Below are positions 26,823-38,779 of a stretch of DNA of 64,000 nt, piece by piece. A program made the position numbers and the translations under genes. The notes under the pieces were generated by a model, which did not search any database, had not been told where the DNA came from, and was given only the letters and a program-made list of their open reading frames with translations. Position 1 is the first letter of the stretch, and each line of letters opens with the position of its first letter. Origin of the DNA: an uncultured Proteiniphilum sp. (GTDB taxonomy: Bacteria; Bacteroidota; Bacteroidia; Bacteroidales; Dysgonomonadaceae); contig CAKMJT010000002.1 in the NCBI GenBank assembly GCA_927407015.1, positions 62,001-126,000 on the forward strand. Reading direction: 5' to 3'.

Positions 26823-29240
<2,418 letters not shown>

Positions 29241-29322
29241 GAGAGAGCACTTCCTGGAAAATAAATTCCCGGAAGAGGGATACAAAGGCCTTGTGCTGCC
29301 TTTTAAATCCGTTAAGTGTCTG

Positions 29323-29736
29323 CTAAAAGACTACACCGACCGGATGGTGGGACAAGATCTGTATCCCCAGGACATGCTCTACATATTGAAAATAGTAAAA
29401 CAGTTTGTGATTCAGCTCAAACCCGTAATCCACACCCGGCTCATACCCTATAATAGGTTCAAAGAATGATCTTTTCCGGGGTTGGGTGGCCAGGTAATTC
29501 CAGGCTGACACATACTGATGGTTCCAGCCCTCATAGTACTGCTGGGACCGGTATCTGGCCGGTGAGTCCTGAAGCAGGTACCATGTTTCGAATCCCGTAT
29601 CGAATACAATCAGTTCATATTCCACGGAATCTTCCCGAGCTTCATTGTCGTTCGGTTCAATCTTGACCATCCCTTTCGGACCCGAGCAGGCTGCGAGGAA
29701 TGATACCACAGCGAATAAAAGAAAAATCTTTTTCAT
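29323..29736 (-). CDS. DUF6146 family lipoprotein
   Basis: A 137-residue lipoprotein with lipobox Cys17 (VVSFLAACSGPKG). It is followed by a compact domain rich in aromatic residues: YELIVFDTGFETWYLL, YRSQQYYEGWNHQYVSAWN, and DYGFELNHKLFYYFQYVE, ending HHPVGVVF. This pattern matches DUF6146, a Bacteroidetes family without a known role. It converges on copA, with an 82-nt gap. The start at 29736 is chosen for the signal peptide; the longer in-frame start at 29769 is unlikely. A -7-like box (TACCTTTG on the minus strand, 29765-29758) lies 21 nt upstream. Confidence 0.85.
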   Translation of the reverse strand: MKKIFLLFAVVSFLAACSGPKGMVKIEPNDNEAREDSVEYELIVFDTGFETWYLLQDSPARYRSQQYYEGWNHQYVSAWNYLATQPRKRSFFEPIIGYEPGVDYGFELNHKLFYYFQYVEHVLGIQILSHHPVGVVF

Positions 29737-29769
29737 ATGATTAAAACTATTTATTTTCAAAGGTATCAT

Positions 29770-30209
29770 ATGGAACTCGCTTTAATCATGCACGTGGGTG
29801 CAAATGGTTTACATGCTCGTTTCATACGATTATATTTTATTTATACTTACGTCAGCCTTTTGCGTGTTTTATTTCTCCCGTTTCTTTATTCAACCATATA
29901 CAGTTTAACATCGATTTTCAGTCATTTGTTTATTCGGAGGTGTTTCACACGATATCACCGAGAATTGCTCCAAGCATATGATACGATTATATAGCATTCA
30001 TTTTCATCGGTAAAATTATAAAAAATATTTGATCGTCAGGAAGATATCTTCATCCTATTATTATGGTTGATTCAGCGCTGCTCATGGAAAATGCATCCCG
30101 GAGGTAAAAAAAATGAACAAAAACGCCTGAAGTTTGTCTTTAATGCAGGGCCGTTGCCGATCAGCAGGCGGCGAAAAATAACAGATTATATGTTAGGAGT
30201 AAAATAAAA
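29770..30209. other. AT-rich intergenic region with a 12-nt direct repeat
   Basis: I see no convincing gene in these 440 nt. A 12-nt direct repeat, ATACGATTATAT, occurs at 29824-29835 and 29981-29992. An 85-codon plus-strand frame here looks random in composition. The last 30 nt hold the leader of the HMA gene, including a GGAG at 30196-30199. Confidence 0.5.
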
Positions 30210-30419
30210 ATGGAAACAATCAAATTCAAAACAAATATCAATTGCACCAATTGTCTGGCCAAGGTTACCCCCTTTCTAGATAAAAAAGAGGGCATACAAT
30301 CCTGGAAAGTGGATATAGATAATCCCGATAAGATACTGACAGTGGAAACGGAAACCCTTACTGCGGATGATATTGTGAAGACTATCAAACGTACAGGGTT
30401 TGAGGCAGAACTGATGTGA
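30210..30419 (+). CDS. Small HMA-domain metallochaperone
   Basis: A 69-residue single heavy-metal-associated domain. The metal site is INCTNCLAKV (Cys13 and Cys16), and the rest follows the beta-alpha-beta-beta-alpha-beta pattern (SWKVDIDNPDKILTVETE, then IVKTIKRTGFEAEL). The usual Met before CxxC is replaced by Asn, which may alter affinity. It could carry Cu(I) to the CopA ATPase 970 nt upstream; that is inference from proximity and family. GGAG at 30196-30199 is a plausible ribosome-binding site. Its stop overlaps the next gene's GTG start by 4 nt, indicating coupled translation. Confidence 0.88.
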   Translation: METIKFKTNINCTNCLAKVTPFLDKKEGIQSWKVDIDNPDKILTVETETLTADDIVKTIKRTGFEAELM

Positions 30420-30634
30420 TCAACAGGAAAGCACTCATATTGTCCATTCTCATTTTGCTGGTAGGAGCAATCGTCCTTTATATCAACCCCGAATCAGTAT
30501 GGAACAGGTATATTTTCTTCCTGTTGGTCGGATGTTCAGTAGGAGCATTTTTATACGGCATCGGTATCGGACGATACGGAGGAAGCAAAAAAGAGAGAAA
30601 AAAGGAGAATCATTCAGATCGTTATCGAAAATAA
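30416..30634 (+). CDS. Small two-helix membrane protein
   Basis: A 72-residue protein with two hydrophobic segments (about 5-24 and 31-50) joined by a short NPESVWNRY turn. A very basic tail contains GGSKKERKKE. It begins with GTG overlapping the HMA stop codon, so it is almost certainly translated with the metallochaperone. I do not recognise a family. A role in metal handling at the membrane would fit the context but is not shown by sequence. Confidence 0.6.
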   Translation: MINRKALILSILILLVGAIVLYINPESVWNRYIFFLLVGCSVGAFLYGIGIGRYGGSKKERKKENHSDRYRK

Positions 30635-30657
30635 TTATGTTAAAAAGAAGGAAAGAG

Positions 30658-30688
30658 TTGCACTTTAATTTCAAATGTTATTTCTTTG
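30658..30688 (+). promoter_or_regulatory. Predicted promoter of the trp operon
   Basis: TTG at 30658-30660, a 20-nt spacer, and TTTCTTTG at 30681-30688, which matches TAnnTTTG at five of six fixed positions. Transcription would begin near 30695, about 12 nt before the leader-peptide ATG and 150 nt before the attenuator's T-run. Confidence 0.6.
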
Positions 30689-30706
30689 CATTCAATTGAT
30701 AGAAAA

Positions 30707-30766
30707 ATGACAAACTTATTAATGAACGGATATTGGTGGCGCTGCTTACAACTCACAAAGTCGTAA
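30707..30766 (+). CDS. trpL: trp operon leader peptide with tandem Trp codons
   Basis: A 19-codon ORF (MTNLLMNGYWWRCLQLTKS) with two adjacent TGG codons at 30734-30739. It lies between a predicted promoter and an intrinsic terminator, 176 nt before trpB. Trp is rare, so two in a row in a 19-residue peptide upstream of Trp synthesis genes is the hallmark of a ribosome-sensed attenuator. There is no strong Shine-Dalgarno, as is usual in Bacteroidetes. The peptide itself would have no function beyond stalling when charged tRNA-Trp is scarce. Confidence 0.8.
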   Translation: MTNLLMNGYWWRCLQLTKS

Positions 30767-30845
30767 GGAGAAGAATCATGCTTTTATAATTCATTGAAAA
30801 ATATATAAAGAGCCTGTCGCAAATCCTGCGACGGGCTTTTTAAGT
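30760..30845 (+). promoter_or_regulatory. trp attenuator: competing antiterminator and terminator
   Basis: The segment at the leader stop codon, GTCGTAAGGA (30760-30769), can pair with TCCTGCGAC (30824-30832) through nine base pairs with one bulged A and one G-U pair. That second segment is the loop and 3' arm of the terminator, so the two structures exclude each other. A ribosome reaching the stop codon would cover 30760-30769 and let the terminator form. A ribosome stalled at the Trp codons would leave it free. This is a by-eye folding; energies were not computed. Confidence 0.6.
30812..30841 (+). terminator. Intrinsic terminator of the trp leader
   Basis: A 10-bp stem of GCCTGTCGCA (30812-30821) with TGCGACGGGC (30827-30836), one G-U pair, a 5-nt AATCC loop, then five T. 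It sits between the leader peptide and trpB. Confidence 0.88.
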
Positions 30846-30942
30846 TTTGACAGCCTCTACCGGCAGGCCGGCAAATGAATGAAAAGTGATTCAATGCAGG
30901 TTCAGAAAACCATATCAGCATACAATTTAAACAGAACGACAT

Positions 30943-32127
30943 ATGCAGCAAATTTCAATCAGTGAGAAAGGATATTACGGGGAGTTCGGCGGAGCCTACA
31001 TCCCCGAGATCCTGCACAAGTGCGTGACAGATCTCGGGGAGGCTTACCTGCGGATTATCGGAAGTAAACGGTTTCAGGAGGATTTTGACTCACTGTTGCG
31101 TGACTATGTGGGGCGCCCTTCACCGCTCTATCTCTCCCGGCAACTGTCGGAGCGTTACGGGGCGAAGATCTACCTGAAGAGAGAGGATCTGAACCACACG
31201 GGTGCACACAAGATCAACAACACCATCGGGCAGATACTGATCGCCCGTGAGATGGGCAAGACACGGATCATCGCTGAGACAGGCGCCGGGCAGCACGGGG
31301 TGGCTACCGCCACCGTCTGCGCGCTGATGCAGATGCCCTGTACCGTCTATATGGGGAAAACGGATGTGGAACGCCAGCAGGTGAACGTGAAGAAGATGGA
31401 GATGCTGGGCGCCACAGTGGTGCCTGTCACTTCGGGCAATATGACACTGAAGGATGCCACCAATGAGGCGATCCGCGACTGGTGCAGTCACCCTGCCGAT
31501 ACCCATTATATCATCGGATCGACCATCGGGCCGCATCCCTATCCCGACCTGGTGGCCCGGCTGCAGTCGGTGATCAGCAAGGAGATCAGGGTGCAACTGA
31601 CGGAGAAGGAGGGACGTGACTATCCCGACTGGCTGGTGGCCTGCGTGGGTGGCGGCAGCAATGCCGCGGGAACCATTTACGAATATCTGAATAATGACAA
31701 GGTGCGTATCCTTCTTGCGGAGGCAGGTGGCAAAGGAGTGGATAGCGGTGAGTCGGCTGCAACCATCCACCTGGGTAAACCGGGGGTGCTCCATGGCTGC
31801 AAAACATTGCTGATGCAGACCGACGACGGGCAGATCACGGAGCCTTACTCCATCTCAGCCGGATTGGATTATCCCGGTATCGGCCCCATCCACGCCTACC
31901 TGGCACAGATAAAACGTGCTCAGGTGCTGGCCATCACCGATGATGAGGCACTCCGTGCGGCGTTCGAACTTACCCGTCACGAAGGCATTATCCCCGCGCT
32001 GGAGTCGGCACATGCGCTGGCTGCACTGGAGAAGGTGACCTTCGCTCCAGGTGATGTGGTGGTCGTCACGCTCTCGGGAAGAGGGGATAAGGATCTGGAG
32101 ACCTATTTCAAGTATAAAAGCTATTAA
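30943..32127 (+). CDS. trpB: Tryptophan synthase beta chain
   Basis: A 394-residue PLP enzyme, standard TrpB length. It joins indole with serine to make tryptophan in an alpha2beta2 complex with TrpA. Signature regions are GEFGGAYIPEIL at the start, the Schiff-base lysine in LNHTGAHKINNTIGQ, the ETGAGQHGVATAT loop, CVGGGSNAAGTIY binding the phosphate, and VVTLSGRGDKD near the end. It is the first structural gene of the operon B-E-G-D-C-F-A, the order found in Bacteroides relatives. Expression is probably set by the leader attenuator upstream. Confidence 0.98.
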   Translation: MQQISISEKGYYGEFGGAYIPEILHKCVTDLGEAYLRIIGSKRFQEDFDSLLRDYVGRPSPLYLSRQLSERYGAKIYLKREDLNHTGAHKINNTIGQILIAREMGKTRIIAETGAGQHGVATATVCALMQMPCTVYMGKTDVERQQVNVKKMEMLGATVVPVTSGNMTLKDATNEAIRDWCSHPADTHYIIGSTIGPHPYPDLVARLQSVISKEIRVQLTEKEGRDYPDWLVACVGGGSNAAGTIYEYLNNDKVRILLAEAGGKGVDSGESAATIHLGKPGVLHGCKTLLMQTDDGQITEPYSISAGLDYPGIGPIHAYLAQIKRAQVLAITDDEALRAAFELTRHEGIIPALESAHALAALEKVTFAPGDVVVVTLSGRGDKDLETYFKYKSY

Positions 32128-32137
32128 TAAAACAAAA

Positions 32138-32199
32138 CCGCTGATGCTGCAAAGCCTGCTCCTAAAGAGCTGATCGCTGAAAGCTGACTGCTGAGAGCC
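32138..32199 (+). repeat. GCTGA-type leader repeat, copy 2 (trpB-trpE gap)
   Basis: GCTGAnn units with the family core CTCCTAAAGAGCTGATCGCT followed by GAAAGCTGACTGCTGAGAGCC. It fills most of the 79-nt gap and ends 7 nt before the trpE start codon, reading in the coding direction. Confidence 0.75.
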
Positions 32200-32206
32200 A
32201 AAAAAT

Positions 32207-33613
32207 ATGCAATACAAATTTCAAACCAACAGCAAAAAGATCATGGGCGACCTCCATACACCCGTGAGTGTCTACCTGAAAGTGAGGGATACTTTCCCCC
32301 AGTCGGCACTACTGGAAAGCTCCGACTTCCACGCCAACGAGAACAGCATCTCTTACCTGGCGCTGAAACCAATCGCACGCATCGAGGTGAACAGAGGTAT
32401 CTGCCGGTCATTTTACCCCGACGGGGAGGAGGAACAGCAACCACTCGCGGAAGATTTCACCGTCTCCGATGCACTGAACCGGTTTATCTCCTGCTTTGAG
32501 GTCACCGGTGAGGAGCAGAAGGAGTGCGGACTCTTCGGATACACTACCTTCAACTGCGTGAAGTACACCGAGAATATTGCCATCCGTGAAAGCCGGGAGG
32601 AGCGCAATGATGCCCCCGACCTGCTCTATATCCTCTATAAGTATGTGCTGGTGTTCAATCACTTTACGGATGAAATCACACTTATTGAGCTCCAGGGGGA
32701 GAACGAGGTGAGTCACATGATGAAAGTGGAGTCGCTGATCAACCAGCGCAACTTCGCCACCTACAACTTCTTCACCGAAGGTGAGGTGTACAGCACCATC
32801 AGTGATGAAGAGTACAAACGGTATGTACGCGAAGGCGTGCAGCACTGCCTCCGCGGCGATGTGTTCCAGATCGTGCTCTCACGAAGGTTTGTGCAGCCTT
32901 TCTCGGGTGACGACTTCAAGGTCTACCGTTCGCTGCGTTCCATCAATCCCTCACCCTACCTCTTCTATTTCGATTTCGGTGGATACCGCATCTTCGGCTC
33001 ATCACCCGAGACACACTGCCGGATCAGCGGTACCCGCATCAGCATCGACCCGATAGCGGGAACGACTAAACGTACCGGCAATCACCAGGAAGATATGAAG
33101 GCGGTCGAGTTTCTGCTGAATGATCCCAAGGAGAACGCAGAGCATGTGATGCTGGTCGACCTGGCACGCAACGACCTGAGCAGGAACGCCCACGATGTGA
33201 AGGTGGATTTCTACAAGGAGCCGCAGTTCTATTCGCATGTGATCCACCTGGTTTCACGCGTGAGTGGCACGCTCCACAAGGATGCCGATCCCATCAGGGC
33301 TTTCTTCGATACCTTCCCTGCCGGCACCCTTTCAGGAGCACCCAAAGTGCGGGCTATGCAGCTCATCTCGGAGATCGAGTCGCACAACCGCGGTGCCTAT
33401 GGCGGATGCATCGGCTTCATCGGGCTGAACGGCGATCTGAACCAGGCCATCACCATCCGCACCTTCGTCAGCCGCAACAACGAGCTCTGGTATCAGGCCG
33501 GTGCGGGTGTCGTCTCACAGAGCAGCGACGAGTATGAGCTGCGGGAAGTGAACAGTAAGCTGGGAGCACTGAAAAAAGCGATCGACAAGGCTGCCACATT
33601 GTATAATACCTAA
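32207..33613 (+). CDS. trpE: Anthranilate synthase component I
   Basis: A 468-residue chorismate-utilising enzyme that, with TrpG, makes anthranilate from chorismate and glutamine. The N-terminal part (1-150) carries the allosteric Trp-binding region, with the element LLESSDFHANENSISYLAL. The C-terminal catalytic domain has FQIVLSRRFVQPFSG, GSSPETHCR, DPIAGTTKRTG, LVDLARNDLSRN and PAGTLSGAPKVRAMQLI. Trp feedback inhibition is expected from the conserved LLESS element. The gene is preceded by repeat copy 2, and trpG starts right at its stop codon, so the two subunits are translationally coupled. Confidence 0.98.
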   Translation: MQYKFQTNSKKIMGDLHTPVSVYLKVRDTFPQSALLESSDFHANENSISYLALKPIARIEVNRGICRSFYPDGEEEQQPLAEDFTVSDALNRFISCFEVTGEEQKECGLFGYTTFNCVKYTENIAIRESREERNDAPDLLYILYKYVLVFNHFTDEITLIELQGENEVSHMMKVESLINQRNFATYNFFTEGEVYSTISDEEYKRYVREGVQHCLRGDVFQIVLSRRFVQPFSGDDFKVYRSLRSINPSPYLFYFDFGGYRIFGSSPETHCRISGTRISIDPIAGTTKRTGNHQEDMKAVEFLLNDPKENAEHVMLVDLARNDLSRNAHDVKVDFYKEPQFYSHVIHLVSRVSGTLHKDADPIRAFFDTFPAGTLSGAPKVRAMQLISEIESHNRGAYGGCIGFIGLNGDLNQAITIRTFVSRNNELWYQAGAGVVSQSSDEYELREVNSKLGALKKAIDKAATLYNT

Positions 33614-34195
33614 ATGAACGCTGCAATGAAGAAAATACTGATATTCGACAACTACGACTCCTTCACCTATAACCTGCTCCATGCGGTAAAGTCGCTGGGA
33701 TACACCGAGGTGGAGGTGATCCGTAACGACAGGATTGACCTGGCGTCGGTGGAGCAATACGATAAGATCATCCTCTCCCCCGGCCCCGGTCTACCCGAGG
33801 AGGCGGGACTGCTGATCCCCCTCATCGAACAGTATGCCGCCACCAAAAGCATCCTGGGTGTCTGTCTCGGCCATCAGGCCATCGGGATGGTTTTTGGTGC
33901 CGCACTGGAGAACATACCCTTTGTCTTTCACGGTGTACAGACTCCGGCCCGGATTATTGCAGAGGACTATCTCTTTACCGGATTGCCGGAAGAGATCCTG
34001 GTGGGGCGTTATCACTCCTGGATTGTCTCGAAAGAGAATTTCCCGTCCGAACTCGAGATCACCGCGGTGGACAAGGCCGGTGATATCATGGCGCTGAAGC
34101 ACAGGCACCTCGATGTACATGGTGTGCAGTTTCACCCCGAATCGATCCTCACCCCTGAAGGAATGACCATGATGGAACAATTTTTAAAAGGATAA
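33614..34195 (+). CDS. trpG: Anthranilate synthase component II (glutamine amidotransferase)
   Basis: A 193-residue class I amidotransferase that supplies ammonia to TrpE. The triad is the nucleophile Cys84 in ILGVCLGHQAIG plus His and Glu in VQFHPESILTPEG. The N-terminus ILIFDNYDSFTYNL and the oxyanion region ILSPGPGLP are typical. The ATG at 33614 touches the trpE stop; a second ATG at 33626 would give the more usual MKKIL start. It is not fused to trpD, unlike enterobacteria. It could also serve 4-amino-4-deoxychorismate synthase, as in organisms with one shared subunit. Confidence 0.97.
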   Translation: MNAAMKKILIFDNYDSFTYNLLHAVKSLGYTEVEVIRNDRIDLASVEQYDKIILSPGPGLPEEAGLLIPLIEQYAATKSILGVCLGHQAIGMVFGAALENIPFVFHGVQTPARIIAEDYLFTGLPEEILVGRYHSWIVSKENFPSELEITAVDKAGDIMALKHRHLDVHGVQFHPESILTPEGMTMMEQFLKG

Positions 34196-34296
34196 TGGCG
34201 GAAGCAGGATAATTGACATTATGCAGCCCACAAGCAGTTCCCGGTGACGATAATGCCATTGATCCATTGATTCCGGTTTTACTTAATAGCATCACA

Positions 34297-35292
34297 ATGA
34301 AAGAAATACTCTATAAACTGTTCGATTATCAGTACCTCACCCGCGATGAAGCCAGAGAGGTGCTCTTCACCATCGTGAAGGGGGATGTACCCGAGACGCA
34401 GATTGCCTCTCTGATCACCTCCTTTTTAATGCGTAGCATCTCAGTGGATGAGATCCTCGGCTTCCGTGATGCACTCCTCGATATGCGGGTGCAGGCGGAT
34501 CTCTCCGATTATGCTCCGCTCGATATCGTAGGTACGGGCGGCGACGGGAAGAACACCTTCAATATCTCCACCACCGCTTGTTTCGTGGTCGCCGGTGCCG
34601 GGTACAACGTGGTGAAGCATGGCAATTACGGCGCCACCTCCATCAGCGGGGCGAGCAACGTGATGGAGCAACAGGGGGTGCGGTTCACTACCGACAACGA
34701 CCGGCTGCGCAGAAGCCTCGATGCCTGCCATCTTGCCTACCTGCATGCACCCTTGTTCAGTCCCGCACTGAAGGCAGTAGCCCCGGTACGGAAGAGCCTG
34801 GGTGTGCTTAATTTCTTCAATGTGCTGGGGCCGCTGGTGAACCCCGTGCAACCCGAATACCAGATGCTGGGGGTTTATAGCTTGGCTATGTTGAGGTTAT
34901 ACAGTTATATCTATCAGGAGGAGAACAAGAAGTTCAGCATCGTCCACAGCATGGATGGCTATGATGAGATCTCGCTGACAAGCCAGTTTAAGGTGGTGTC
35001 GAACAGAGGTGAGCAGCTCTTTATGCCGGCTGATCTCGGTTTCAGCACCCTGACACAGCAGGAGCTGTCCGGGGGTGATACCGTTGAAGATGCCTCGCTG
35101 ATCTTCCGCCAGGTGCTGAGCGCTGAGGGAACCGAAGCGCAGATGAATGCAGTGCTGGCCAATGCGGCATTCGGTATTCAGATCATCGAACAGGAAAAAA
35201 CAATCGAAGAGTGTCTGGAGATTGCGAAAGATGCACTTTACGGAAAGAAAGCATTGCGCACGCTGGAGAAATTTGTGGAATTGAATCAATAA
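34297..35292 (+). CDS. trpD: Anthranilate phosphoribosyltransferase
   Basis: A 331-residue enzyme that transfers phosphoribose from PRPP to anthranilate. Motifs are the PRPP-binding VGTGGDGKNTFNIST, the anthranilate and metal region VKHGNYGATSISGASNVME, and LGPLVNPVQPEYQMLGVY. The helical N-terminal domain begins MKEILYKLFDYQYLTRDEA, which fixes the start at 34297. The longer in-frame ORF from 34213 adds 28 residues unlike the family. The 101-nt trpG-trpD gap has no repeat of the GCTGA type, unlike three other junctions of the operon. Confidence 0.97.
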   Translation: MKEILYKLFDYQYLTRDEAREVLFTIVKGDVPETQIASLITSFLMRSISVDEILGFRDALLDMRVQADLSDYAPLDIVGTGGDGKNTFNISTTACFVVAGAGYNVVKHGNYGATSISGASNVMEQQGVRFTTDNDRLRRSLDACHLAYLHAPLFSPALKAVAPVRKSLGVLNFFNVLGPLVNPVQPEYQMLGVYSLAMLRLYSYIYQEENKKFSIVHSMDGYDEISLTSQFKVVSNRGEQLFMPADLGFSTLTQQELSGGDTVEDASLIFRQVLSAEGTEAQMNAVLANAAFGIQIIEQEKTIEECLEIAKDALYGKKALRTLEKFVELNQ

Positions 35293-35330
35293 GAAATTAG
35301 AACGTAGGTGTAGCATTCTGAAGCAGCATC

Positions 35331-35406
35331 CAAGCTTATCGCTTACAGCTTACAGCTTACAGCTTACAGCTAATTGCTTACTACTTAAAGCTTACCGCTA
35401 AAAGCT
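35331..35406 (+). repeat. GCTTA-type leader repeat, copy 3 (trpD-trpC gap)
   Basis: A run of 7-nt units, AGCTTAC repeated about four times (35344-35371), then more degenerate units ending TACCGCTAAAAGCT. It ends 7 nt before the trpC start. The units have GCTTA rather than GCTGA but the same period and position as the other copies. Confidence 0.75.
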
Positions 35407-35413
35407 ATTTCTA

Positions 35414-36205
35414 ATGAAAGATATTTTAAGTGAGATTATCGCACATAAAAAAAACGAAGTTGCCGGCCGGAAAGCAGAGATCCCTTTTGCGATGCTGGAG
35501 AAACGACTCACAGCGAAAACGATTCTTTTTCACTCATTGAATGAGGCACTGGTGCAATCAACCACAGGGATTATCGCCGAGTTCAAACGCCGTTCTCCCA
35601 GCAAGGGGTGGATCAACCGGCCGGCCGATGCGGCAGAGGTGACAAAAGCCTATGCGGCCGCGGGTGCTGCGGCTTTGTCGGTGCTGACCGATGAGGAATA
35701 TTTCGGAGGGACGCTTGCCGACCTGCGGTTAGCGGTGGAGACCGTGCAGATTCCGGTGATACGCAAAGAGTTTATCGTGGATGAGTACCAACTGTTCGAG
35801 GCGAAGCTGGCAGGCGCCGACGCCATCCTGCTGATCGCCGCCGCCATCACGAAGGAGGAGTCGAACCGATTCACGGTGCTGGCGCATCAGCTGCAGCTGG
35901 ATGTCCTGCTGGAACTGCATGATGAGCGGGAGACGGATTATATCACACCGCTCAACACACTTATCGGCATCAATAACCGCAACCTGGGGAGCTTCGTGAC
36001 CGATGTGGATAAATCGTTCCGGATGATTGACCTGATCCCGAAGGAAGCGGTCCTGGTATCCGAAAGCGGTATCTCAGACCCGGGAATGGTCCGTGAACTG
36101 AGAGAGGCGGGCTACAGGGGTTTTTTGATCGGCGAGAATTTTATGAAAACCGCCGATCCGGGTGAGAGTCTCAGAAGGTTTTTGGGTGAAATTGAAAGAA
36201 ATTGA
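35414..36205 (+). CDS. trpC: Indole-3-glycerol-phosphate synthase
   Basis: A 263-residue TIM barrel that closes the indole ring with loss of CO2 and water. Key motifs are IIAEFKRRSPSKGWI with the catalytic Lys (about residue 58), ALSVLTDEEYFGGTL, VIRKEFIVDEYQL with the second catalytic Lys, IGINNRNLGSFVTD and LVSESGISDPGMV. It is a stand-alone protein, not fused to TrpF as in E. coli. The following gene, trpF, lies 154 nt downstream across repeat copy 4. Confidence 0.97.
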   Translation: MKDILSEIIAHKKNEVAGRKAEIPFAMLEKRLTAKTILFHSLNEALVQSTTGIIAEFKRRSPSKGWINRPADAAEVTKAYAAAGAAALSVLTDEEYFGGTLADLRLAVETVQIPVIRKEFIVDEYQLFEAKLAGADAILLIAAAITKEESNRFTVLAHQLQLDVLLELHDERETDYITPLNTLIGINNRNLGSFVTDVDKSFRMIDLIPKEAVLVSESGISDPGMVRELREAGYRGFLIGENFMKTADPGESLRRFLGEIERN

Positions 36206-36230
36206 GGAAGATTGATTTAAATTGAAAGTG

Positions 36231-36350
36231 AACAGTTCATAGTTCAAAGCTGACCGCTGAAAGCTGAGAGCTGAACGTTTAAAAACTTACCGCTGCAAGT
36301 ACAAAGTTTCCTTCTAAAAAGCTGAAAGCTGACCGCTGATCGCTAAAAAC
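36231..36350 (+). repeat. GCTGA-type leader repeat, copy 4 (trpC-trpF gap)
   Basis: Two blocks of GCTGAnn units (36248-36275 and 36320-36353) flank the shared core ACCGCTGCAAGTACAAAGTT then TCCTTCTAAAAAGCTGA. It is upstream of trpF in the coding direction and closely resembles copy 5 at 57.5 kb. A different short repeat (ATTGAAAG and variants) lies just before it at 36188-36230. Confidence 0.8.
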
Positions 36351-36359
36351 GAAAAGAAT

Positions 36360-36974
36360 ATGTTGATAAAAGTATGTGGCATGCGTGATGAACGCAACAT
36401 CCGTGCAGTAGAGCAGCTGGATATCGACTGGATGGGATTTATCTTCCATCCGTTGTCGTCCCGTTACGTGGGAGAACAACTGAGCTATCTGCCGGAGAAG
36501 GTAACAAGGGTAGGTGTCTTTGTGGACGAACAGCCGGAGATAGTACGCGAACGGGCGGAGCAGAACCGGTTACAGATCCTCCAGCTGCACGGGAAGGAAT
36601 CGCCGGCGTATTGTCGGGAATTTAAAAAACAGGGTTACCGCGTGATAAAGGTGTTCGGCATTGAAACAGATCAATCCTTTCCGACAGAGATTGTACAGCG
36701 TTACGAAGGGTGTTGCGACTACTTTCTGTTCGACACGAAGACACCGATGCACGGTGGTTCCGGACAAAAATTCAACTGGGAGGTGCTTGCCGGTTACCGC
36801 GGCGAAACTCCTTTTCTGTTAAGTGGTGGCCTCTCTCCCACCGTTGTGGCGGCCGTCAGGGCGTTCTCTCATCCAAAATGGGTGGGCATCGACCTGAACA
36901 GCGGTTTTGAGACATCACCCGCAATCAAGGATACAACGTTATTGCAACCATTTATTGAACAGCTATTGCGCTAA
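36360..36974 (+). CDS. trpF: Phosphoribosylanthranilate isomerase
   Basis: A 204-residue TIM barrel performing the Amadori rearrangement of phosphoribosylanthranilate. The catalytic Cys is in LIKVCGMRDERN (Cys6) and the Asp is in FLFDTKTPMHGGSGQKFNW. The phosphate-binding end is FLLSGGLSPTVV and GIDLNSGFETSPAIKD. It is a separate gene from trpC. The ATG at 36360 follows directly after repeat copy 4. Confidence 0.97.
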   Translation: MLIKVCGMRDERNIRAVEQLDIDWMGFIFHPLSSRYVGEQLSYLPEKVTRVGVFVDEQPEIVRERAEQNRLQILQLHGKESPAYCREFKKQGYRVIKVFGIETDQSFPTEIVQRYEGCCDYFLFDTKTPMHGGSGQKFNWEVLAGYRGETPFLLSGGLSPTVVAAVRAFSHPKWVGIDLNSGFETSPAIKDTTLLQPFIEQLLR

Positions 36975-37048
36975 TCCAAACGTCAGAGCGCGAACAGGTT
37001 TCACCGATGTCACAACGGACAATAGTCTAACTTTTTTGAAAATCAGAT

Positions 37049-37819
37049 ATGAACAGGATTGATCAATTATTTCAGGAAACAAAAGAGCGTATCTTATCGG
37101 TCTACTTCACCGCCGGTTATCCCGCACTCAATGACACGGTCAGGGTGATCAACGCCCTGGAAAAGGCGGGAGTGGATATGATCGAGATCGGTGTACCCTT
37201 CAGCGACCCGATGGCCGACGGGCCGGTCATTCAGGCGTCAGGCGCGAAAGCACTGCAGAACGGGATGAGTGTGAAAACGCTATTCACCCAGCTGGCCGGG
37301 GTAAGGTCGACGGTCTCCATCCCACTGGTGCTGATGAGCTATCTGAACCCCATCATGCAGTTCGGTTTTGAACATTATTGTGAAGAAGCGGCCCGGTGTG
37401 GTATCGACGGGCTGATCATTCCCGATCTCCCTTTTTCCGAATACCTGGAGAGCTACAAACCGATCGCCGACAGGCATGGGCTGCACGTGATCATGCTGAT
37501 CACGCCCGAGACATCGGAAGAACGGATCAGGCTGATCGACGAGCACACCTCCGGATTTATCTATATGGTCTCTTCGGCCTCGGTGACAGGTGCCAAAAGT
37601 GCGTTCAGCGATGTCAACATCGATTACTTCCGGCGTGTGAACGCCATGCAGCTGAAGATTCCCCGGCTGATCGGCTTTGGCATCTCCAACAAAGAGACCT
37701 TCGATGCCGCATGCCGCGAAGCATCGGGAGCCATTATCGGCAGCAGGTTCATCACATTGCTGGGGAGTGAAGATTCCATTGAAGAGGCTGCAAAAAAATT
37801 GACCGATGCCATTCGCTGA
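37049..37819 (+). CDS. trpA: Tryptophan synthase alpha chain
   Basis: A 256-residue TIM barrel that splits indole-3-glycerol phosphate to indole, which is channelled to TrpB. Catalytic Glu46 and Asp57 lie in MIEIGVPFSDPMADGPVIQ. YFTAGYP at 19-25, LIIPDLPFSE, and the phosphate-binding GFGISNKETF are also present. It is the last gene of the operon and is separated from trpB by five genes, unlike the adjacent trpBA of many bacteria. No clear terminator follows; the EamA-type gene has its own -7 box. Confidence 0.98.
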   Translation: MNRIDQLFQETKERILSVYFTAGYPALNDTVRVINALEKAGVDMIEIGVPFSDPMADGPVIQASGAKALQNGMSVKTLFTQLAGVRSTVSIPLVLMSYLNPIMQFGFEHYCEEAARCGIDGLIIPDLPFSEYLESYKPIADRHGLHVIMLITPETSEERIRLIDEHTSGFIYMVSSASVTGAKSAFSDVNIDYFRRVNAMQLKIPRLIGFGISNKETFDAACREASGAIIGSRFITLLGSEDSIEEAAKKLTDAIR

Positions 37820-37894
37820 GGAGTATCTTTTCAGGAAATTTCCCGTACATTTGCAGCTCGTTTTCAGAGACACTAACAGAGACGAATTCTTTTA

Positions 37895-38779
37895 ATGCCT
37901 TTTCAGTCGCACATTGGTGAAATAGCCTCACTCGTGACCGCTGTATGCTGGACACTGAGTGCCATCTTCTTCGAGAAAGCCGGCCGTCGTGTAGGTTCCC
38001 TGTCGGTGAACATCATCCGCATCTTCCTGGGGATCCTCTTCCTGGGCATCACCACACTGTTCACCCGCGGCATGTTCTTCCCGATGGATGCCACTCCCTA
38101 CAACTGGTTCTGGCTGGGTCTCTCGGGTGTCATTGGTTTTTTCCTGGGCGATCTCTTCCTCTTCAAATCCTATATCATCATCGGTTCACGCACCTCACAG
38201 CTGGTGATGAGCCTGGCACCCATGATCACTGCCATCATCGGCTGGTTTTTCCTGTATGAGATCCTCCCCATGAAAAGCATACTGGGTATCGTGGTGAGTG
38301 TCGCGGGAATCATGATCGCCGTGGCAGGTAAGCGACTGAAGCTGAATGTGCCGCTACGCGGTTTTCTCTATGCCCTGGGAGGAGCGCTGGGACAAGCCGT
38401 GGGGCTCATCCTCAGCAAGAAGGGGATGGGCGATTACGACGCGGTGGCCGCCACACAGATACGCGCCATCTTCGGATTTGCCTCTTTCGCCCTGCTGGTG
38501 ACCGTTTTCCATCGCTGGAAGAGGGTGATCAGCACGGCCAAAGATAGAGTGGGGATGAAAGCGATCACCATCGGTGCCATTTTCGGGCCTTTCATCGGTG
38601 TAGCCCTCTCTCTCTACGCCGTACAGCATACCGAGACAGGTATCGCATCGGCACTGATGGCGCTGACACCCATTTTCATTATCCTGCCCACGGCCATCAT
38701 GTTCAAAGAGAAAATCACCGCCCAACAGGTGATTGGAGCGGTGATCAGCATCGCCGGAGCGACAATCTTCTTTTTATAA
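37895..38779 (+). CDS. EamA/DMT-superfamily transporter
   Basis: A 294-residue membrane protein with about ten helices in two EamA repeats (about 8-142 and 152-292). The repeats are recognisable from SLVTAVCWTLSAIFFEKAG at the start and GVALSLYAVQHTETGIASAL in the second half. Members export amino acids, metabolites or nucleotide sugars, and the substrate cannot be told here. Its place after the trp operon might hint at an amino-acid exporter, but a perfect -7 box (TACATTTG, 37846-37853) suggests separate expression. Confidence 0.9.
   Translation: MPFQSHIGEIASLVTAVCWTLSAIFFEKAGRRVGSLSVNIIRIFLGILFLGITTLFTRGMFFPMDATPYNWFWLGLSGVIGFFLGDLFLFKSYIIIGSRTSQLVMSLAPMITAIIGWFFLYEILPMKSILGIVVSVAGIMIAVAGKRLKLNVPLRGFLYALGGALGQAVGLILSKKGMGDYDAVAATQIRAIFGFASFALLVTVFHRWKRVISTAKDRVGMKAITIGAIFGPFIGVALSLYAVQHTETGIASALMALTPIFIILPTAIMFKEKITAQQVIGAVISIAGATIFFL

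Follow-up and report, generated by a model that had tools for sequence, protein, structure and literature searches.

The genes of a trpBEGDCFA operon in the window (the whole 64-kb stretch of DNA that was analysed) are preceded by a short Trp-rich open reading frame (ORF) and a terminator, raising the question of whether transcription of the operon is set by a ribosome translating this leader and, if so, which part of the terminator the antiterminator captures. An earlier note, made from the sequence alone, had proposed a trp attenuator of a compact three-segment design in which the terminator loop and 3' arm are taken up directly.

The trp operon and its leader region

The first gene after the putative attenuator is trpB (30943–32127, forward strand; TIGR00263, 579.9 bits, cut-off 392.45), and it is followed on the same strand by trpE, trpG, trpD, trpC, trpF and trpA in that order (32207–37819), which were identified as ORFs with Pfam domains above gathering. 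TrpE scored 408.5 against NCBIfam TIGR00564, below the cut-off of 517.7. Among the best 80 TrpB loci, the named relatives with the two closest TrpB are both Proteiniphilum (88 and 86% identical to that in the window), which makes Proteiniphilum or a near relative within Dysgonomonadaceae the probable source of the window. An EamA-family transporter is encoded directly 3' of trpA (37895–38779 in the window), and its similarity to the aromatic amino-acid exporter YddG is weak and far below cut-off.

Direct reading of the bases at 30658–30845 agreed with the earlier description of a promoter, a 19-codon ORF with two adjacent TGG codons and a terminator before trpB. The candidate promoter is of the Bacteroidota type (30658–30688, forward strand), with a -33 TTG at 30658–30660, a 20-nucleotide spacer and the -7 element TTTCTTTG at 30681–30688, which is one base off TAnnTTTG. 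Of 122 related leaders (not deduplicated), 100 carry an exact copy of TAnnTTTG, the Bacteroidota -7 promoter motif, at some position in the 75 nt that precede the ATG, and none of 94 control 75-nt stretches 3' of the terminator has one; a sigma-70 promoter scan is ill-suited to Bacteroidota. The ORF encoding the leader peptide MTNLLMNGYWWRCLQLTKS (30707–30766, forward strand) has its ATG at 30707–30709, 19 codons and a TAA stop codon at 30764–30766. The tandem Trp codons, read in the sequence at 30734–30739 (forward strand), are the predicted sensor, and the leaders of relatives carry WW or WWW.

The terminator, also on the forward strand, folds into 16 pairs over 30806–30842 (-24.1 kcal/mol), a longer stem than the 10 bp given in the earlier note. 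Its 5' arm (segment 3) is at 30806–30821, its loop at 30822–30826 and its 3' arm (segment 4) at 30827–30842, with a U tract at 30837–30841. The fold of 30695–30845 had a z score of -4.56, and none of 200 shuffles was equally stable. The hairpin was absent from the output of a simple terminator scan of 29000–38000, probably because the stem absorbs the U tract.

Three competing helices can be drawn from the forward-strand segments between the Trp codons and the end of the terminator. Segment 1 (CUUACAACU; 30745–30753), just 3' of the Trp codons, forms a protector hairpin with bases 30759–30767 of segment 2 (AGUCGUAAGGA; 30759–30769, also called 2a), which holds the leader stop codon and is the common partner of segment 1 and of the terminator loop plus 3' arm. 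As the earlier note had it, GUCGUAAGGA (30760–30769) can pair with UCCUGCGAC (30824–30832), giving nine pairs with one bulged A at -12.1 kcal/mol; duplex prediction and comparison place the antiterminator target as a whole in the loop plus the initial bases of the 3' arm (30822–30832, forward strand). This duplex alone was equalled by 13 of 2000 shuffles of 30746–30800, and conservation is therefore the stronger evidence against chance. Further 3', a candidate segment 2b (30777–30785, forward strand) pairs weakly with the terminator 5' arm, at -6.5 kcal/mol in the window compared with -12.1 kcal/mol for the loop plus 3' arm.

Relationship to the Bacteroid-trp family

The only Rfam model matched at gathering in the 64-kb window was RF01692 (Bacteroid-trp), which covers 30684–30818 on the forward strand over the full model (1–131) at 51.6 bits, against a gathering threshold of 49. 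As this match is above the cut-off, the element is of a known kind, and the match to this published family is an addition to the earlier account. No T-box, riboswitch or TRAP-type leader was matched at gathering; RF04312 (trpB) reached 27.4 of the 59 bits needed, and four others were also below their cut-offs. The leader region, the Trp codons within its ORF and the trp operon that follows are all shared with the family. However, the RF01692 model stops within the terminator 5' arm and includes neither the terminator hairpin nor an antiterminator.

Weinberg 2010 classes the Bacteroid-trp motif of Bacteroidetes as probably a cis-regulatory RNA (PMC2864571). A later text places it upstream of the Flavobacterium psychrophilum trp operon and compares it to the E. 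coli leader (PMC6414381), and a transcriptome study of the same species finds 'strong clues' that amino-acid operons are attenuated through leader peptides (PMC9723704). The position upstream of the trp operon is thus common to F. psychrophilum and the window, but an antiterminator geometry is absent from the main-text passages on it in the two papers (PMC6414381, PMC9723704). Leader-peptide-like sORFs are mentioned for B. thetaiotaomicron in another report (PMC7366714), and a 2010 paper states that, before its own Firmicutes case, no leader-peptide system was known to its authors to have been demonstrated outside Proteobacteria and Actinobacteria (PMC2965389). Pairing of an antiterminator with the loop and 3' arm was not found in the Rfam model or in the literature search, though supplements and subscription papers, notably Lopatovskaya 2010, could contain it. 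The earlier note had read largely correctly an element that belongs to a known family and whose antiterminator geometry was not found in print; the comparison presented here supplies the missing half of a family known since 2010, together with compensatory changes.

Leaders in related genomes

Relatives of TrpB (best 80 kept) and RF01692 loci (27) gave 107 starting loci, and a tandem-Trp leader plus terminator was found by a fixed rule in 63 of them. These yielded alignment A1 of 62 distinct leaders, L038 being dropped as a duplicate of L020. The set was then enlarged by genus and family loci (31 of 32 further ones), by all 28 loci that a phylum search provided, and finally by 40 of 40 weaker matches of a leader plus terminator model in the order, hand-chosen from the listing. 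Of the 28 phylum-search loci, 27 belong to a second family within the class (probably Flavobacteriaceae) and one, L164, to the window's order. The resulting 162 leaders collapsed to 142 distinct ones from Bacteroidales and one family of the same class. L013 and L116 were left out, having no complete leader and terminator, and 18 further stretches were kept outside the 142. The rule that gathered most relatives demanded WW or WWW, and as leaders were collected via their Trp codons and terminators, the joint presence of both is partly circular.

Among the best 80 trpB loci, 51 were taken as Bacteroidales from their titles; 37 of these met the rule, six more were accepted by eye and kept outside the 142 (L033, L039, L047, L069, L078 and L080), and eight were without the element. 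In five of these eight, the stretch before trpB reads, by eye, as the end of trpA, and in L049 the terminator is kept and the contig is cut 74 nt upstream, before a leader would show. For the other 29 of these 80 loci, the 500 nt preceding trpB never satisfied the rule. The earlier note had regarded a terminator kept without a Trp-rich ORF as speaking against attenuation; among the best 80 trpB loci one, L039, was seen by eye to have a leader with a single Trp codon (ACLWRFLQLQKS) while retaining segment 2 and the terminator.

With RF01692, the element is detected in 17 of the 39 genomes of the genus and, under stricter filters, in 27 of the 295 of the order. A new leader plus terminator model, R1, had matches at E <= 1e-3 in 37 of the 39 genus and 193 of the 295 order genomes, and at E < 1e-16 in 30 of the 39 (counted from the listing). 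As leaders for Phe and others, and reverse-strand hits beside a trp match, are among the weak R1 matches, 193 is not a count of trp attenuators; only the best matches were taken as loci from the genome searches with either model.

In the first set, the switch of most loci from the window's order lies ahead of trpB, and in the 27 loci from the other family of the class it lies ahead of trpE. Downstream of the Trp-rich leader and terminator of the 40 divergent loci, the next gene is trpE in 27 and trpB in 13. The attenuator thus keeps its place close to the start of the operon even as the leading gene varies.

Conservation and covariation of the helices

All three helices were conserved in A1. 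The terminator was paired in 96.6% of cells, with double changes at 12 of 13 pairs; helix 1:2 was paired in 83.9% of cells (6 of 9 pairs doubly changed), and the antiterminator of segment 2 with the loop plus 3' arm in 90.2% (5 of 8 pairs doubly changed, 38 such cells). For the antiterminator, none of 500 shuffles was as good, and versions slid along the alignment of the 62 leaders paired at 18.9–55.3%. RNAalifold returned the terminator only, an expected outcome because the helices compete.

Changes of both partners on the same branch were counted on a TrpB tree of 57 leaders, five of the 62 having no TrpB in the locus and being omitted. The terminator had 43 such changes (4.57 expected), 42 of which keep a standard pair, and helix 1:2 had 10 (1.54 expected), with 7 keeping one. 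The earlier note had made its reading depend on segment 2 and the terminator changing in a compensatory way, and such changes were present: 6 same-branch changes against 1.12 expected, all 6 keeping a standard pair, compared with 2, 0 and 1 for the antiterminator slid by +1, -1 and +2 on the same tree. Just these 6 events on the tree support the antiterminator helix, and the terminator stem places its own constraint on part of the 3' arm.

The second base of the stop codon (usually TAA or TGA), which lies in segment 2, goes with both of its partners. Across the 62 leaders, the bases in segment 1, segment 2 and the terminator form the triple U-A-U in 24, U-G-C in 18, C-G-C in 9, C-G-U in 8 and another combination in 3. 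The ribosome geometry set out in the earlier note also holds: relative to the first base of segment 2, the stop codon of 128 of the 142 leaders falls between -6 and +14 nt. These sequence comparisons support three mutually exclusive helices and the position of the stop codon relative to segment 2.

The pairs wholly in the loop (67:156 and 68:155) showed no double change in A1; they are unpaired in 17 and 11 leaders, and are conserved on the segment-2 side. This absence of double change slightly lowers confidence in the mechanism proposed below. The lack of double change, together with the resemblance of segment 2 to the terminator 5' arm (GUCG) in many leaders, would suit an origin of the match as the leftover of a duplicated stem without functional pairing. 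This is quite improbable, given that joint changes on three branches (p = 0.0004) were seen for pair 66:159, in which the terminator-side base lies in the loop or closes it, and that divergent loci differ in sequence yet by eye are still complementary (L274, GUUGCCGCUA / UAGCGGCGAC; L272, CGGGAG / CUCCCG; also L281), with the swap test described below holding there. L260 had no good match to its loop plus 3' arm.

Partner preference of segment 2

In textbook attenuators, the terminator is prevented from closing because its 5' arm is sequestered. The window resembles the E. coli trp leader in having tandem Trp codons within a leader peptide and an intrinsic terminator behind it, in a protector hairpin 1:2 that competes with the antiterminator, and in its control logic. 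However, segment 2 was not found to pair with the terminator 5' arm in the window, where the main helix is that with the loop plus 3' arm. In a like duplex test, the E. coli leader (trpL from NC_000913.3; L285) preferred its 5' arm with upstream bases, at -12.1 versus -4.9 for the loop plus 3' arm, the reverse of the window.

Own and swapped partners were compared across the 142 leaders in permutations that ignore kinship among the leaders. An earlier version of the test with segment 2a had chosen the segment by its own best pairing, which favoured own partners, and an unselected 41-nt segment was used afterwards. With this segment, the leader's own loop plus 3' arm averaged -10.33 kcal/mol versus -8.00 kcal/mol when swapped, and none of 5000 swaps was as good; in the 38 most divergent leaders the values were -8.88 versus -6.71 kcal/mol (0/5000). 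Set C (23 leaders) gave 224/5000, the test being low-powered there because its sequences are nearly alike. Pairing of the loop plus 3' arm at -6 kcal/mol or better was found in 137 of the 142, and at least two loop pairs in 133. There was no own-partner preference of segment 2a for the 5' arm (4584/5000) or of segment 2b for the loop.

A classic attenuator of the E. coli type, in which segment 2b (or 2) with the 5' arm is the working antiterminator and the match to the loop and 3' arm is secondary, would account for several of the results. Segment 2b paired better with its own 5' arm than with swapped ones over the 142 leaders (-6.25 versus -5.64 kcal/mol, 0/5000), and the 5' arm was an equal or stronger partner in 29 of them, including L034, L036, L037 and L042 from Bacteroides, with 2b:5' arm duplexes of -11.5 in L034 and -12.5 in L036. 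The 5' arm is also usually part of unrestricted duplexes, which tend to extend from the loop into it via a stretch 3' of segment 2; with 2b allowed to join, only 7 of 154 were classified as loop plus 3' arm alone. Yet the loop plus 3' arm was the stronger partner in 113 of the 142, as it is in the window, and in the 38 most divergent leaders the preference of 2b for its 5' arm fades and becomes unclear (415/5000) while that of segment 2 for the loop plus 3' arm holds. The classic arrangement thus appears unlikely, and the comparisons suggest that the antiterminator takes the terminator loop and 3' arm, not the 5' arm.

Segment 2b may instead be an auxiliary helix able to hold the 5' arm, making for a layout richer than three segments. 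The ribosome-sensed trp attenuator of the earlier note fits the comparisons, while its compact three-segment design is not supported: the protector hairpin 1:2 is present and covaries, and 2b can pair with the 5' arm in many relatives.

Folding of growing transcripts and proposed mechanism

Growing transcripts were modelled as equilibrium folds with assumed ribosome and polymerase footprints. For a ribosome at the Trp codons of the window, which leaves RNA free from 30751 onwards, 8.9 antiterminator pairs and no terminator pairs were predicted at exposed ends 30832–30833, and at 30836 the terminator gained the lead. It was already ahead from 30829–30831 when the ribosome was placed at the stop codon or left out. 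The same competition was counted over the 142 leaders, taking any RNA upstream of the terminator as partner and not segment 2 alone. When exposure ended five bases short of the last G/C of the 3' arm, this RNA was predicted to outpair the terminator for the loop and 3' arm in 126 leaders with the ribosome at the Trp codons, 3 with it at the stop codon and 32 with no ribosome. The corresponding counts were 128, 15 and 45 at six bases, 110, 1 and 25 at four, and 98, 1 and 18 at three, so that the modelled outcome is dependent on the assumed exposure. These folds lend support to the proposed order of events by agreeing with it, short of proof.

At equilibrium, the finished terminator was the most stable fold of the window in every ribosome state. 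Such stability would also be expected of a constitutive intrinsic terminator of upstream transcription lying beside a chance Trp-rich ORF, with no switch. That reading is hardly credible, as segment 1, segment 2 and the terminator covary, and a Trp-rich leader and terminator stand ahead of trpB or trpE in all 40 of the chosen divergent model matches, the model selecting the leader and terminator and not the gene behind them. For an attenuator, the greater stability of the finished terminator in the window means that the choice of the switch must be kinetic; likewise, as the loop and 3' arm are made last, an antiterminator of this type could work only kinetically.

The element is probably a ribosome-mediated transcription attenuator of the trpBEGDCFA operon in which segment 2 captures the terminator loop and 3' arm; that the ribosome stalls, that transcription terminates in vivo and that trp expression responds are steps that we infer. 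When Trp is short, the leader ribosome would stall at the Trp codons and cover segment 1, leaving segment 2, with the leader stop codon, free. Segment 2 would pair with the loop and the beginning of the 3' arm on their exit from RNA polymerase, before the terminator closes, and transcription would continue; the loop emerges first and may seed the antiterminator ahead of stem closure. When Trp is plentiful, a ribosome at the stop codon would cover segment 2 and the terminator would form, and without translation segments 1 and 2 would pair, likewise allowing the terminator to form.

We lean towards extending this arrangement to the class Bacteroidia as a loop-anchored antiterminator, in which segment 2 nucleates on the emerging loop, zips into the 3' arm and wins by time, not stability. 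If so, what stays constant would be the loop as target; in a small number of lineages (L025, L254 and L278, by eye), segment 2 seems to pair with the loop in a helix that extends into the 5' arm and not the 3' arm.

Other leader-peptide units in Bacteroidota

Further units seen in the course of the searches hint that leader-peptide control (Trp, Phe and perhaps Cys) is common in Bacteroidota. A Phe-rich leader (NNSVFAFSFWFYFYFSR; V/MNNSVFAFSFWFYFYFSR) and terminator in the same genome (L227:1389–1531; G000:C18:6388–6530) lie directly before a prephenate-dehydratase-like gene (198.7 bits, under the model cut-off of 219). In this leader, the segment 3' of the stop codon prefers the 5' arm, at -13.7 versus -4.5 for the loop plus 3' arm. 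As the Phe leader is of the 5'-arm type and the trp leader of the loop/3'-arm type, both designs seem to coexist in one genome. Similar Phe leaders were seen in L228–L231, and the 5' arm was preferred in three relatives of L227; no Rfam model was matched at gathering by L227 or L228.

A Cys-rich leader (NCCWCCENTSKCKQ) and terminator were located before an ORF starting MKIYNNITELIGNTPL in L237 (G129:C131:15465–15594), where no Rfam model was matched at gathering. The ORF is presumably cysteine-synthase-like, and the unit is a possible Cys attenuator.

In L232, L233, L234, L235 and L236, two Trp leader/terminator units were seen by eye in tandem, suggesting a possible double trp attenuator in Bacteroidales. 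The ORF directly behind the double unit in L232 is one that we take to be trpE-like, and one of the leaders in L234 reads WHWH.
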